From NCBI GenBank assembly GCA_947625895.1, contig CANQPZ010000011.1, positions 1 to 39,852 on the forward strand: DNA of 39,852 bases, given 5' to 3'. A program made the position numbers and the translations under genes. Origin of the DNA: an uncultured Clostridia bacterium. GTDB taxonomy: Bacteria > Bacillota > Clostridia > TANB77 > CAG-508. Shown here piece by piece: positions 15,867-39,063 of the stretch; within the stretch, counting starts at the first letter, position 1, and each line of letters begins with the position of its first letter. The notes beneath the pieces are model-generated. The model had not been told where the DNA came from. It worked only from the letters and a program-made list of their open reading frames with translations, and made no database searches.

Positions 15867-15897
15867 AAAAATCAGACTTTAAAAGTCTGATTTTTTT
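15865..15897. terminator. Bidirectional terminator between metK and the convergent gene
   Basis: AAAAAATCAGACTTT / AAAGTCTGATTTTTT. Confidence 0.75.
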
Positions 15898-17003
15898 GCT
15901 ATTTGTGTTCCAAAAATAAATTCTTTTAATGATCTAAAAATTTTTTGTACTTTTGATAATTTGTTATTTGTTAAAAGTATTGGTAAATTTTCACTATTTG
16001 GTTGAGGTATGTTTAAAACTTTGCCATACTTGATAATTTGGCCTTTTTTCTCATTTATACCAATTAATATTTTAGTACAGAATTTATTATAAAATGTATA
16101 ATTATCAGAAATGATTAGGAGTTTTTTATATTCTTCTAATTCTTGTTCAAACTGTTTTATTTCTTCTAAAGTGCATAAGTGTGACAGTTTTTTCTTAAAG
16201 CAAGAAGAAAGTATTTTATTTTGTGTTTTTTCTACTATATTTATTATTTGTTTCTTCTGAATTTCAATTTGCATTCTTAATGATTTTAATTTTAGTTCAG
16301 AAGAATCTTCAGTTTCAAACTTTTGAGATAAAATTGCTAAGTCTGTTTCTAAATTTAGTAACTTATCAAATGAAAGTGCTATATCATTATAAACCTCAGA
16401 AGAACTGGCTTCTGTAAATGCCTTTTCAAACGTTGATGTACCATAAAGAGTGCTAAAATATAAAGCTTCTTTTCCTGTAAAGAAAAGCATTTGATTAATT
16501 AGTGCACATTCTATTGGATAATATTCAGGACTTTCTGTTGAAAGTGATAAACCATAATATGTTACGTTTTCTTTTTGAGATGATTGTGTTCTTGAGGCAA
16601 CTAATTGAGTTGCAGCTTCATTTAATGCTAGTCCAATTTGTGTATTTAAATCATATAATCCTAATTTTACTAATTTTCCTTTTTGATCTTTTGTCTCTTG
16701 CATATAATGTATGCATTCATGAATTGCGGGTATATCCATTTTATCTAAATCTAAATTTTCATTAAAAAATATAGAGTTATTTCCATATACGTATTTTGCA
16801 CTAGTACAATTATCTTGCATTTTTGCAGTATACATATTAAGTCTGGATATTTGTATAAATAGATCACTTTGAGATAAGTGCAAATCTGGAAAGGCATTAC
16901 ACAATTTTTCAGAGATGTATGATGCAATCTTATTAATTTGCATTGTATCTAATTTTTTTATATTTTCTAAGCCTTCTTTTCGCAATAAAAATGTTATTCC
17001 CAT
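15879..17003 (-). CDS. Uncharacterised protein with HExxH motif
   Basis: DMDIPAIHECIHYMQE followed by an all-helical, charged C-terminal region; GGAG RBS upstream. Confidence 0.5.
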   Translation of the reverse strand: MGITFLLRKEGLENIKKLDTMQINKIASYISEKLCNAFPDLHLSQSDLFIQISRLNMYTAKMQDNCTSAKYVYGNNSIFFNENLDLDKMDIPAIHECIHYMQETKDQKGKLVKLGLYDLNTQIGLALNEAATQLVASRTQSSQKENVTYYGLSLSTESPEYYPIECALINQMLFFTGKEALYFSTLYGTSTFEKAFTEASSSEVYNDIALSFDKLLNLETDLAILSQKFETEDSSELKLKSLRMQIEIQKKQIINIVEKTQNKILSSCFKKKLSHLCTLEEIKQFEQELEEYKKLLIISDNYTFYNKFCTKILIGINEKKGQIIKYGKVLNIPQPNSENLPILLTNNKLSKVQKIFRSLKEFIFGTQIAKKSDF

Positions 17004-17326: not shown

Positions 17327-19273
17327 ATGAAAAACAAAAGGAAATTAGTCATTCTTCTATTGGCAATTTTTATTCTTATATTAGGCAGTAAAAATCTACT
17401 TGCTGCTTCTGTAGAAAATGTCCAATTAGAAGGCGAAGGAATATTAAATTATACGAATAATCCATTTAATCCATTTTATTCAACTTCTAAGAGGGATGAA
17501 AGCCATATAAGTAATAGAATAAGTAGTTTATTCAATAGAGTTGTTGCTGCTACATTACCTTCAAGTTATAGGACTGAAGGACTTACAGTAAAAAATCAAG
17601 GAGAAACTGGTGAATGCTGGGCATTTGCTTATACATCAGCAATTGAAGCGTATAATTTAACTCATAATGGAAGTACTAAAATTTTTTCTCCTAGACACAT
17701 TGATTACTCTTGTAGTAAAAGTTTTACTGAATCTGTAGATTCAAGTAAATATTTTAATAGGGAAGTAACAGATGGAGCAGGAAATTACTTTTTAGCTTCT
17801 GCATATGCTGCATCTAGAAAAGGTCCTGTATTGGAATCTGATATGCCTTTTTCTGAAACTTTAAACAAGATATCAATTAATGATTTAAATAAAGAAAGGC
17901 AAAAACAAATTGAGGATTATGTAATATTTGATAGTGTTTATAAAAAATATACAGGAAGTCAAGTCTCATACTATATGGATCCTACTTGCACAATGCCATA
18001 TAATAATATAGAAGGTTTTAGAAATCAAGTAAAACAACAAATAAAAGAAAATGGTGCTGTATTGACATGTATATTTCAAACAGTGCGAGATAGTGATGTA
18101 TTAGTAAAACAAGATGAATACGGTGTAAATCATGGAGTTTGTATTGTTGGATGGAATGATACATATCAAGCTGCTGGTTGGGACAAACCTGGAGCATATA
18201 TAGCAATAAATTCTTATACTGAAGAAAGTTTTTATGATGGTTATATTTACATATCATATGATGATATATATGTAGAAGAAAATTTATTTGGAATTACAGC
18301 TGTATCAGATGTAGATACAACAAATGTATATGAATATGATGAATTAGGAACTACAGGTGGTGCAACTGGTGAAGACATTGCAGAAGAATGTAGTCAAACA
18401 GAAGAAATAACAGCAGTTAATGTTTTTAATAGAGAAAGTGTAGGAAAAGATGAATTACTAACAGAAGTTGGGGTAGCAAACTGGAGTTATCAAAAAGCGG
18501 AAGTTTATTTTACAGAAGAATTTTCATCTGATAGTGGTGATGAATTACCTAAAAATTGGAAACTTATAGGATCAACAGATACGATGGGCCCTGGATTTAA
18601 GACGATTAGATTAAGCAAACCTACTAAACTTACTAAAGATAAATATGCTATAGCTGTAAGATTTATAGAAGACAATGTTGAAAAACAAGCTTCTGTAGCT
18701 TTGGAAATGCCACTTTCTAGCAATAATTGGTGGGCAAATGTAAAAGGAAATAAAGGGGAATCATTTATAGTTATAGATAAGTTTAATACTAATGGTGGTA
18801 ATACATTTTATATGCTTGGATCTAGAGGTAATTATTATAATAATTGTGTAAAAGGTTATACAACAATTTCAAGTGATATATCTTCTAGCGTTTATGAAAT
18901 AAGAGGTTCAATAGTAACAAAAGTTGATCTTAATACATCATTAGAAGATTTTAAGAGCAAAATAACTGTTCCAGAAGGTAAAGAATATAAAGTAGTAGAT
19001 TCAGAAGGACATGAAGTTTCTGAAAATGATGCTGTTCTAAAAACAGGAGATAAAGTTGTTATTGATTCTAAAGAATATGTTATTTCTGTTAGAGGAGATG
19101 TTACAGGTGACGGAGTAGGAGATATTCTTGATTTAGCAAGAATTCGTGCACATGCTGTAGGAAGAAAAGGATACATACTTACTGGTGCAAGCTTGTATGC
19201 AGCAGACTTGAGCTCAGATAGTCAAGTTGATATTCTGGATATTGTCAGAATGAGGAGAATTTGTGTTGAATAA
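17327..19273 (+). CDS. Secreted papain-like (C1) cysteine protease with C-terminal type I-like dockerin
   Basis: Signal peptide; VKNQGETGECWAFAYTSAIE (Cys), NHGVCIVGWNDTY (His), AINSYTEE (Asn); dockerin DVTGDGVGDILDLARIRAHAVG...AADLSSDSQVDILDIVRMRRICVE. Confidence 0.85.
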   Translation: MKNKRKLVILLLAIFILILGSKNLLAASVENVQLEGEGILNYTNNPFNPFYSTSKRDESHISNRISSLFNRVVAATLPSSYRTEGLTVKNQGETGECWAFAYTSAIEAYNLTHNGSTKIFSPRHIDYSCSKSFTESVDSSKYFNREVTDGAGNYFLASAYAASRKGPVLESDMPFSETLNKISINDLNKERQKQIEDYVIFDSVYKKYTGSQVSYYMDPTCTMPYNNIEGFRNQVKQQIKENGAVLTCIFQTVRDSDVLVKQDEYGVNHGVCIVGWNDTYQAAGWDKPGAYIAINSYTEESFYDGYIYISYDDIYVEENLFGITAVSDVDTTNVYEYDELGTTGGATGEDIAEECSQTEEITAVNVFNRESVGKDELLTEVGVANWSYQKAEVYFTEEFSSDSGDELPKNWKLIGSTDTMGPGFKTIRLSKPTKLTKDKYAIAVRFIEDNVEKQASVALEMPLSSNNWWANVKGNKGESFIVIDKFNTNGGNTFYMLGSRGNYYNNCVKGYTTISSDISSSVYEIRGSIVTKVDLNTSLEDFKSKITVPEGKEYKVVDSEGHEVSENDAVLKTGDKVVIDSKEYVISVRGDVTGDGVGDILDLARIRAHAVGRKGYILTGASLYAADLSSDSQVDILDIVRMRRICVE

Positions 19274-19284
19274 AAATAAAGGGG

Positions 19285-19313
19285 TTGACGTAATACCTAA
19301 AAAATAGTATAAT
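19285..19313 (+). promoter_or_regulatory. Sigma-A-type promoter of the cohesin gene
   Basis: TTGACG (19285-19290), 17-bp spacer, TATAAT (19308-19313). Confidence 0.75.
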
Positions 19314-19339
19314 ATAAAGAGTTAAAGGAGAAATTTTAA

Positions 19340-20080
19340 ATGAAAAAGAAGATTGTATTAGTTTTATTAATGATAATTTCACTAATGAGCGTACTTACAG
19401 CAAGGGTTTTCGCTGCTGATTCATTTTCTGCATCATTAACCCCAAGTACAACAAGGGTTACAAAAGGTGGAGAATTTACAGTAACTTTAAAAATATCATC
19501 AATCAATGTTCAAGATGGTATAAGTGGAGTTGAAGGTACGTTAAAATATGATCCAGATGTCTTAAGTATTACAAAAAATGATATAAAAGCAGCTGATGGA
19601 TGGGCAGTTGATTTTAGTGAAGATACTTTGAAATTTGAAGTAGATAGATCTGATTCAACAAAAGAAGATGCTGAAATAGCTACATTTAAATTTAAAGTTA
19701 ATCAAAATACAAGTAATACAACAGCTACTGTTTCAATAGTTTCAATTGCAGGTGGAAATGCTAGTTTAAGTGAAAAAATAAAAATCACTGATCTTGTTAC
19801 GAATGTTACAATAGCAAGCTCAGGAACAACTTCACCTACAGCAACAAGTTCCCCAAGTTCATCACCATCAACATTACCAACAGTTAATCCAACACAAAAC
19901 CCAAGTTCAAATCCAGGTACAAATCCGGGTTCAGGTGATGAAAACGTAGTTGAAAACACAACTAGAAAAGATTCTGATATGCCATATACTGGTGCAGAAG
20001 CTTATATAATACCACTAATAATAGTTATATCTTTATTAGGAATAGCTTCTTACATCGGATATAAAAAAATAGGTAAATAA
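19340..20080 (+). CDS. Cohesin-domain surface protein with Thr/Pro/Ser-rich linker and LPXTG-like C-terminus
   Basis: SFSASLTPSTTRVTKGGEFTVTLKISSINVQDGISGVEGTLKYDPDVL...DAEIATFKFKV; linker TSPTATSSPSSSPSTLPTVNPTQNP; DMPYTGAEAYIIPLIIVISLLGIASYIGYKKIGK. Confidence 0.82.
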   Translation: MKKKIVLVLLMIISLMSVLTARVFAADSFSASLTPSTTRVTKGGEFTVTLKISSINVQDGISGVEGTLKYDPDVLSITKNDIKAADGWAVDFSEDTLKFEVDRSDSTKEDAEIATFKFKVNQNTSNTTATVSIVSIAGGNASLSEKIKITDLVTNVTIASSGTTSPTATSSPSSSPSTLPTVNPTQNPSSNPGTNPGSGDENVVENTTRKDSDMPYTGAEAYIIPLIIVISLLGIASYIGYKKIGK

Positions 20081-20090
20081 ATATAAAGTT

Positions 20091-20125
20091 AAAGACAACC
20101 TAAATTCATAGGTTGTCTTTTTTTT
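20091..20125 (+). terminator. Rho-independent terminator
   Basis: AAAGACAACCT / AGGTTGTCTTT plus T run. Confidence 0.8.
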
Positions 20126-38643: not shown

Positions 38644-38709
38644 AAATATCTAATAATAAAATTCAATAACTTACCAGTTCGATATATAGAATTATTAGGA
38701 GTGATTGTT

Positions 38710-39063
38710 ATGGTAATCAAAAGAGGAGATATGTTTTATGCTGATTTAAGTCCAGTAATTGGTTCAGAACAGGGAGGTGTAAGACCTGTTTTAATAATTC
38801 AAAATGACACAGGAAATAAGTATAGTCCAACAGTAATTGCGGCAGCCATTACCTCTCAAGTTGGAAAAAATAAATTGCCAACACATATTGAAATTGATTC
38901 AAAGGATGTTGGCTTAAAATCTGATTCAGTAGTTCTTGCAGAACAAATCAGAACAATTGATAAGAGCAGATTAAAAGAAAAAATTGGTCATATAGATGAT
39001 GAAAAAATTATGGGAAAAATAAATAGCGCTATAGGTATAAGTTTTGGTTTAGCTAATGATTAA
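38710..39063 (+). CDS. mazF: MazF/PemK (EndoA-like) endoribonuclease toxin
   Basis: [47 protein letters not shown]...[17 protein letters not shown]; start set by AGGAG RBS. Confidence 0.92.

Follow-up and report, generated by a model that had tools for sequence, protein, structure and literature searches.

In a 39,852-nt stretch of the genome of an uncultured Clostridia bacterium (GTDB lineage TANB77; CAG-508; contig CANQPZ010000011.1), hereafter the window, a gene for a secreted papain-like cysteine protease that ends in a dockerin (gene A) is followed by a gene for a secreted protein with a single cohesin and a sorting-like tail (gene B) (Table 1). The best explanation of our data, and one that we consider probable, is that the cohesin of gene B tethers the protease, by its dockerin, to the cell surface. 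For the genome as a whole, the best reading is a set of dedicated, parallel enzyme-socket pairs, each of which would keep a single enzyme at the cell wall. A preliminary description, made from the sequence alone, had presented the two genes as a self-contained pair and a minimal 'one-enzyme cellulosome'. We retain the enzyme tether of that proposal as probable but not the cellulosome label, as two defining features of a cellulosome, a multi-cohesin scaffoldin and polysaccharide-degrading dockerin enzymes, were looked for and not found. The pair turned out to be one of four dockerin/anchor pairs in this genome, and many more occur in the family.

The protease, the cohesin anchor and the gap between their genes

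Gene A matched Peptidase_C1 with 37.5 bits (hmmscan, cut-off 20.7), and the papain-site residues Q91, C97, H269 and N295 were unchanged in all 20 homologues. A profile of gene A homologues found Cwp84 of Clostridioides difficile with E-values of 5e-52 (4ci7) and 3e-50 (4d59), and Cwp84 was also the best fold match of the predicted structure (4d59, template modelling (TM) score 0.79), lectin-like domain included. With both the Q/C/H/N site and the lectin-like domain present, gene A encodes a C1A peptidase of the Cwp84 type, which the preliminary description had missed. Its two-repeat dockerin scored 20.9 bits with Dockerin_1 in hmmscan, below the cut-off of 22.9, and 25.1 bits, above it, in the genome scan. 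The calcium loops of both repeats have D at positions 1, 5, 9 and 12, and T/S at position 3.

Gene B encodes a signal sequence, the cohesin, a Thr/Ser/Pro linker and a tail composed of MPYTG, a transmembrane helix and KKIGK. The domain is a cohesin by profile (Cohesin, 30.2 bits, Pfam cut-off 24.1) and by fold, the best match of its predicted structure in the read-through model described below being the C. perfringens cohesin 2vo8 (TM score 0.83). A search with the whole of gene B against PDB sequences returned only spurious cyanovirin matches; it was the fold search that led to 2vo8. The domain composition given in the preliminary description was therefore borne out, with Cohesin and Peptidase_C1 above their cut-offs and Dockerin_1 above its cut-off in one of the two scans.

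The gap between the two genes, exactly 66 bp long, contains the top promoter-like site of the region, TTGACG-17-TATAAT at 19285-19313, which agrees with the consensus at 11 of 12 positions. In whole-genome scans, the longer form GGGGTTGACGTAA...TATAAT occurred as a single copy in each of four genomes of the same genus (G000, G010, G104 and G151), and no copy was present in the 26 other genomes searched. Its coordinates in G000, G010 and G104 are those of the protease-cohesin gap, and the match in G151 is identical, letter by letter, to the protease-cohesin gap of the relative L059. Because the element is conserved among genomes of the same genus, the cohesin-gene promoter that had been read from the sequence is backed by comparison, beyond its agreement with the consensus. 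The extended -35 element, GGGGTTGACGTAA, is conserved to an unusual degree and may point to a specific regulator.

In the proposed mechanism, the secreted protease would plug its C-terminal dockerin into the single cohesin of the gene B product, which would itself be exported and joined by a sortase to the cell wall through its MPYTG tail. The protease would thereby be kept at the outer surface in a non-covalent and replaceable manner. The separate promoter of the cohesin gene would allow the supply of sockets to be adjusted apart from that of the enzyme. Likely substrates would be proteins of the bacterium's own cell surface, comparable to SlpA in the case of Cwp84, or proteins of the gut.

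Table 1. Features of the protease-cohesin region, in window coordinates, and the four dockerin/anchor pairs of the genome
Feature	Position	Strand	Basis
Gene A: secreted papain-family (C1A, Cwp84-like) cysteine protease with lectin-like domain and C-terminal dockerin, 648 amino acids	17327..19273	+	PF00112, PF00404
Peptidase_C1 domain, residues 87-312	17585..18262	+	Pfam; Q91, C97, H269, N295
Lectin-like domain, Cwp84 type (approximate limits)	18300..18898	+	Match of the model to 4d59/4ci7, spanning 462-485 columns
Dockerin, two repeats DVTGDGVGDILD / DLSSDSQVDILD, recognition pair IL/IL	19094..19255	+	Pfam, genome scan, repeats
Cohesin-gene promoter GGGGTTGACGTAA...TATAAT	19281..19313	+	11/12 consensus; once per genome in G000, G010, G104, G151
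Gene B: secreted wall-anchor protein with one cohesin, 246 amino acids	19340..20080	+	PF00963
Cohesin domain of gene B	19439..19807	+	Family-specific profile, 128 bits
Sorting signal MPYTG, transmembrane helix, KKIGK tail	19979..20077	+	Sequence; motif kept in relatives
Intrinsic terminator 3' of gene B, 12-bp stem then T run	20091..20120	+	
Pair C11: C1 protease-dockerin, then cohesin with MPYTG	Window		
Pair C37: F5/8-domain transglutaminase-like dockerin protein, then cohesin with LPKTG			
Pair C17: transglutaminase-like protein with cohesin and dockerin, then cohesin with LPALG	L010:6426-11275		
Pair C9: SagB-like glucosaminidase-dockerin, then Ig-like and cadherin-like protein with LPTLS-transmembrane segment	L009:7953-11232		

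Dockerin/anchor pairs in the genome and in the family

Genome-wide profile searches of the source genome (a small gut bacterium; 1.475-Mb assembly, 95% complete) yielded four dockerins, four cohesins located in four places, and seven sortase matches. A count of dockerins and sortases had been suggested as a check in the preliminary description, and the sortase matches agree with its sorting-like tail. Each of the four dockerin genes is followed, on the same strand and after a gap of about 10-66 bp, by a gene for a secreted, tail-anchored protein, which carries a cohesin in three cases and an Ig-like domain in the fourth. The transglutaminase-like label of the C37 enzyme comes from clustering and a cysteine-histidine motif, because Pfam sees only its F5/8 and dockerin domains. 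The C17 enzyme (1300 amino acids), having its own cohesin as well as a dockerin, could carry another dockerin protein. The recognition pairs differ among the four dockerins, being IL/IL in the window, AT/AT and MV/MI in two others, and PI/PL in C9 (read from the sequence), and therefore each enzyme probably has a socket of its own. In place of a shared multi-enzyme scaffold, the genome would thus operate four parallel enzyme/socket pairs.

A profile scan of the open reading frames of the genome found no multi-cohesin protein, the maximum being one cohesin per frame, and there is no plant-polysaccharide hydrolase among the four dockerin partners (the C1 protease, two transglutaminase-like proteins and the SagB-like glucosaminidase). 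The system is therefore not a cellulosome, and this interpretation was rejected. The remark that no glycoside hydrolase lies near the pair held true for the other Pfam-annotated genes of the window.

Across the 145 genomes (39 genera) of the family, cohesins were found in 120 and dockerins in 136; the gene A protease matched 122 of them, in part through its dockerin portion only. Within the wider order, matches to the cohesin profile are frequent in this family and one further family, and sparse elsewhere. To this survey we added a pairing sample of 71 cohesin-only genes, taken from 60 regions at the strongest cohesins and from regions of the source genome, in which a pair was counted when a dockerin gene ended less than 400 bp upstream of the cohesin gene on the same strand. 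Directly downstream of a dockerin gene lay 44 of the 71 (median gap 30 bp), whereas only about 0.05 such pairings are expected by chance, because there are about five dockerins per 1.4 Mb. The 44 paired cohesin proteins nearly all have a signal sequence (43) and a C-terminal transmembrane segment (41), and 32 have an LPxTG-like motif; the paired dockerins are at the extreme C-terminus in 45 of 47 proteins, none of which has a transmembrane tail. Dockerin partners in the family are mainly transglutaminase-like proteins, F5/8 and NPCBM proteins, and C1 proteases with a lectin-like domain, and no catalytic family of glycoside hydrolases is among their 25 commonest Pfam families.

The Ig-like partner of the C9 enzyme may represent a second type of socket. 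Its homologues occur in 115 of the 145 genomes; a dockerin ends within 300 bp upstream of about 40 of the N-terminal matches listed for it (comparison of tables), and its profile and that of the dockerin fall on adjacent genes in at least 12 of 20 further regions. Twenty-five genomes of the family lack a Pfam cohesin, and a family-specific profile recovered one in a single genome among them. Seventeen genomes have dockerins but no cohesin, and in 16 of them a dockerin gene is followed by one for a secreted protein that starts with an Ig-like beta-sandwich domain, as judged from sequence; the seventeenth, G125, has one dockerin with too little sequence behind it for a judgement. Pfam assigns the C9-type domain to Big_2, and comparison with cohesin profiles gave a probability of 74-83 over the first strands only and of 80 when the alignment was forced to be global. 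The domain is thus a candidate new dockerin receptor or, possibly, a far-diverged cohesin. It is conceivable, although we hold it somewhat less probable than its opposite, that the whole family uses a general plug-and-socket display on the wall, with privately matched sockets encoded by the next gene, of which one widespread type would be an Ig/Big_2-like receptor or an unrecognisably diverged cohesin.

Evidence for the proposed matched sockets and alternative explanations

If sockets are matched to their enzymes, cohesins should follow the dockerins beside them. In a set of 45 non-redundant pairs, the distances among dockerins were correlated with those among cohesins (r 0.72, p 1e-4), also when the enzyme core was taken into account (partial Mantel r 0.60, p 1e-4), and the correlation of dockerins with their own enzymes was lower (r 0.50) than that with the neighbouring cohesins. 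In one cluster of 13 enzymes, eight have dockerins of the AT type (seven AT/AT or AN/AT, one PT/ST), and the cohesins beside these eight all belong to one clade with 100% support; the cohesins of the other five (dockerins IT, VN, VT, TT or FQ) fall outside it. This switch of cohesin clade within an enzyme cluster, as judged from alignments and trees, is what would be predicted for matched sockets.

Because genes A and B share a reading frame, dockerin, linker and cohesin could be modelled with AlphaFold2 as one read-through chain, in which the in-frame stop codons of the gap were read as Gly (33 aligned rows). The model had a mean predicted local distance difference test (pLDDT) score of 89 and a predicted TM score (pTM) of 0.77. 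As the cohesin makes up about 52% of the chain, this pTM is above the expectation for the cohesin alone being placed, which suggests that the position of the dockerin against the cohesin is predicted with confidence. The structure prediction proposed for the complex is thus support for a dockerin seated on the cohesin, and not proof.

Several observations weigh against a dedicated tether. Position 3 of the calcium loop is T/S, not N/D, in both dockerin repeats of gene A, and the first repeat is degenerate in two congeners. Of the sampled cohesin-only genes, 27 of 71 have no adjacent dockerin, and G004/G040 carry the protease without an adjacent cohesin; moreover, the regions were picked by strong cohesin score, and the paired fraction may differ for weak cohesins. 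The joint model, of one read-through chain, was judged from its confidence scores, without a mismatched-pair control, coordinates or an inter-domain error map. Finally, shared inheritance of neighbouring genes may give part of the co-variation, though not the cohesin switch inside one enzyme cluster.

An unlikely but serious alternative is that binding is promiscuous or chained, that the anchors and the C17 enzyme form a mixed non-cellulolytic complex, and that adjacency reflects operon formation merely. The C17 enzyme, bearing both modules, would suit such a complex, as would four relatives (G014, G083, G062 and G037) whose operons contain a cohesin-dockerin adaptor. However, the recognition pair differs in each of the source genome's own dockerins, which are 18-34% identical to one another (25-27% for its cohesins), and cohesin clades track dockerin type. 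The adaptor-type operons (L077, L078, L079 and L082/L149, respectively) comprise genes for a dockerin protein, a short cohesin-dockerin adaptor, a C1 protease-dockerin and a cohesin anchor, in this order, and contain no multi-cohesin scaffold.

Rather improbable is the possibility that the tail of gene B is an ordinary membrane anchor without sortase action, which would tether the protease to the membrane instead. MPYTG is non-canonical, and the tail scored 11.9 bits with TIGR01167, under the cut-off of 15.9. Nevertheless, the motif is kept among relatives as [MIV]P[YDS]TG (ADTG in L144) while its flanking residues vary, an LPxTG-like motif precedes the transmembrane segment in the paired cohesin proteins at the frequency given above, and gene B has a signal peptide, an LPxTG-like motif, a transmembrane segment and a positive tail in a genome with sortases. 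We therefore retain the sorting-like tail of the preliminary description and infer attachment by a sortase.

That the pair is a relic, with a dockerin that has decayed or binds something else, is slightly less probable still: the degenerate calcium ligands, the Pfam dockerin score at the cut-off and the two congeners with a degenerate first repeat would fit it, but dN/dS (the ratio of nonsynonymous to synonymous substitution rates) against L059 is about 0.30 for the protease (dN 0.24, dS 0.78) and about 0.37 for the cohesin, the cohesin promoter is conserved, the dockerin is kept in same-genus pairs, and the joint model is confident. L059 was found among the named genomes with topB as query, which the protease/cohesin pair adjoins there too; the protease itself as query found no relative among them.

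Relation to known systems and other genes of the window

Cohesin and dockerin are usually taken as signs of a cellulosome. The pairs described here share cohesin-dockerin pairing with the cellulosomes of Clostridium thermocellum and Ruminococcus flavefaciens, and a sortase-type anchoring cohesin with ScaE; unlike in cellulosomes, there is one enzyme per anchor gene and the matched partners are adjacent on the chromosome. Cwp84, which carries CWB2 wall-binding repeats, is a surface enzyme as well. Like gene A, it combines a papain protease with a lectin-like domain (4ci7, 4d59; PMC4089489), whereas the C-terminus of gene A is a dockerin. In R. flavefaciens, the NlpC/P60 papain-like protein RflaF_05439 is bound by sortase-anchored ScaE (cited as unpublished in PMC3573020), and the double dockerin dDoc_0689 of a C. 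thermocellum S8 protease prefers cell-bound ScaD (reviewed in PMC12484212). Both are protease-type proteins kept on the cell surface via a dockerin, but those anchors serve a cellulosome too, whereas here one enzyme stands beside each anchor and there is no scaffoldin. R. flavefaciens also has several transglutaminase-like dockerin proteins (PMC2930009).

Non-cellulosomal cohesins are known from the C. perfringens glycosidases, the source of the closest predicted fold; there the modules join secreted glycosidases to each other, whereas here the cohesin belongs to a wall anchor and its counterpart is a protease. The Limousia mucinolysome (PMC12997984) is likewise a non-cellulolytic cohesin-dockerin system of a gut bacterium with some dockerin peptidases, but its defining components are multi-cohesin scaffoldins together with mucin glycosidases. 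Among the open papers searched, which take in few subscription journals, we found no report of the one-enzyme/one-socket gene pair as the main family-wide use of cohesin and dockerin in a scaffoldin-free genome. A recent census demanded a multi-cohesin scaffoldin (PMC11557425), and of 4,333 human gut genomes reported to encode cohesin as well as dockerin, three qualified as mucinolysome carriers (PMC12997984). One-to-one pairs in small-genome gut Clostridia could explain part of the remaining two-module genomes. They could also suggest that the pairing is a general means of hanging single enzymes on the Gram-positive wall, and the many naturally matched pairs would provide new building blocks and a ready specificity data set.

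Two further genes of the window deserve mention. The gene at 15879-17003 (-), divergent from gene A, encodes a protein without a Pfam match that contains a HECIH motif; a common family with the HETIH protein encoded 3' of the C17 pair was considered but not supported, as the two showed no significant similarity. At 38701-39063 (+), between FtsZ/SpoIIGA/sigma-factor genes and the end of the window, lies a PemK/MazF-like toxin gene (119.6 bits).
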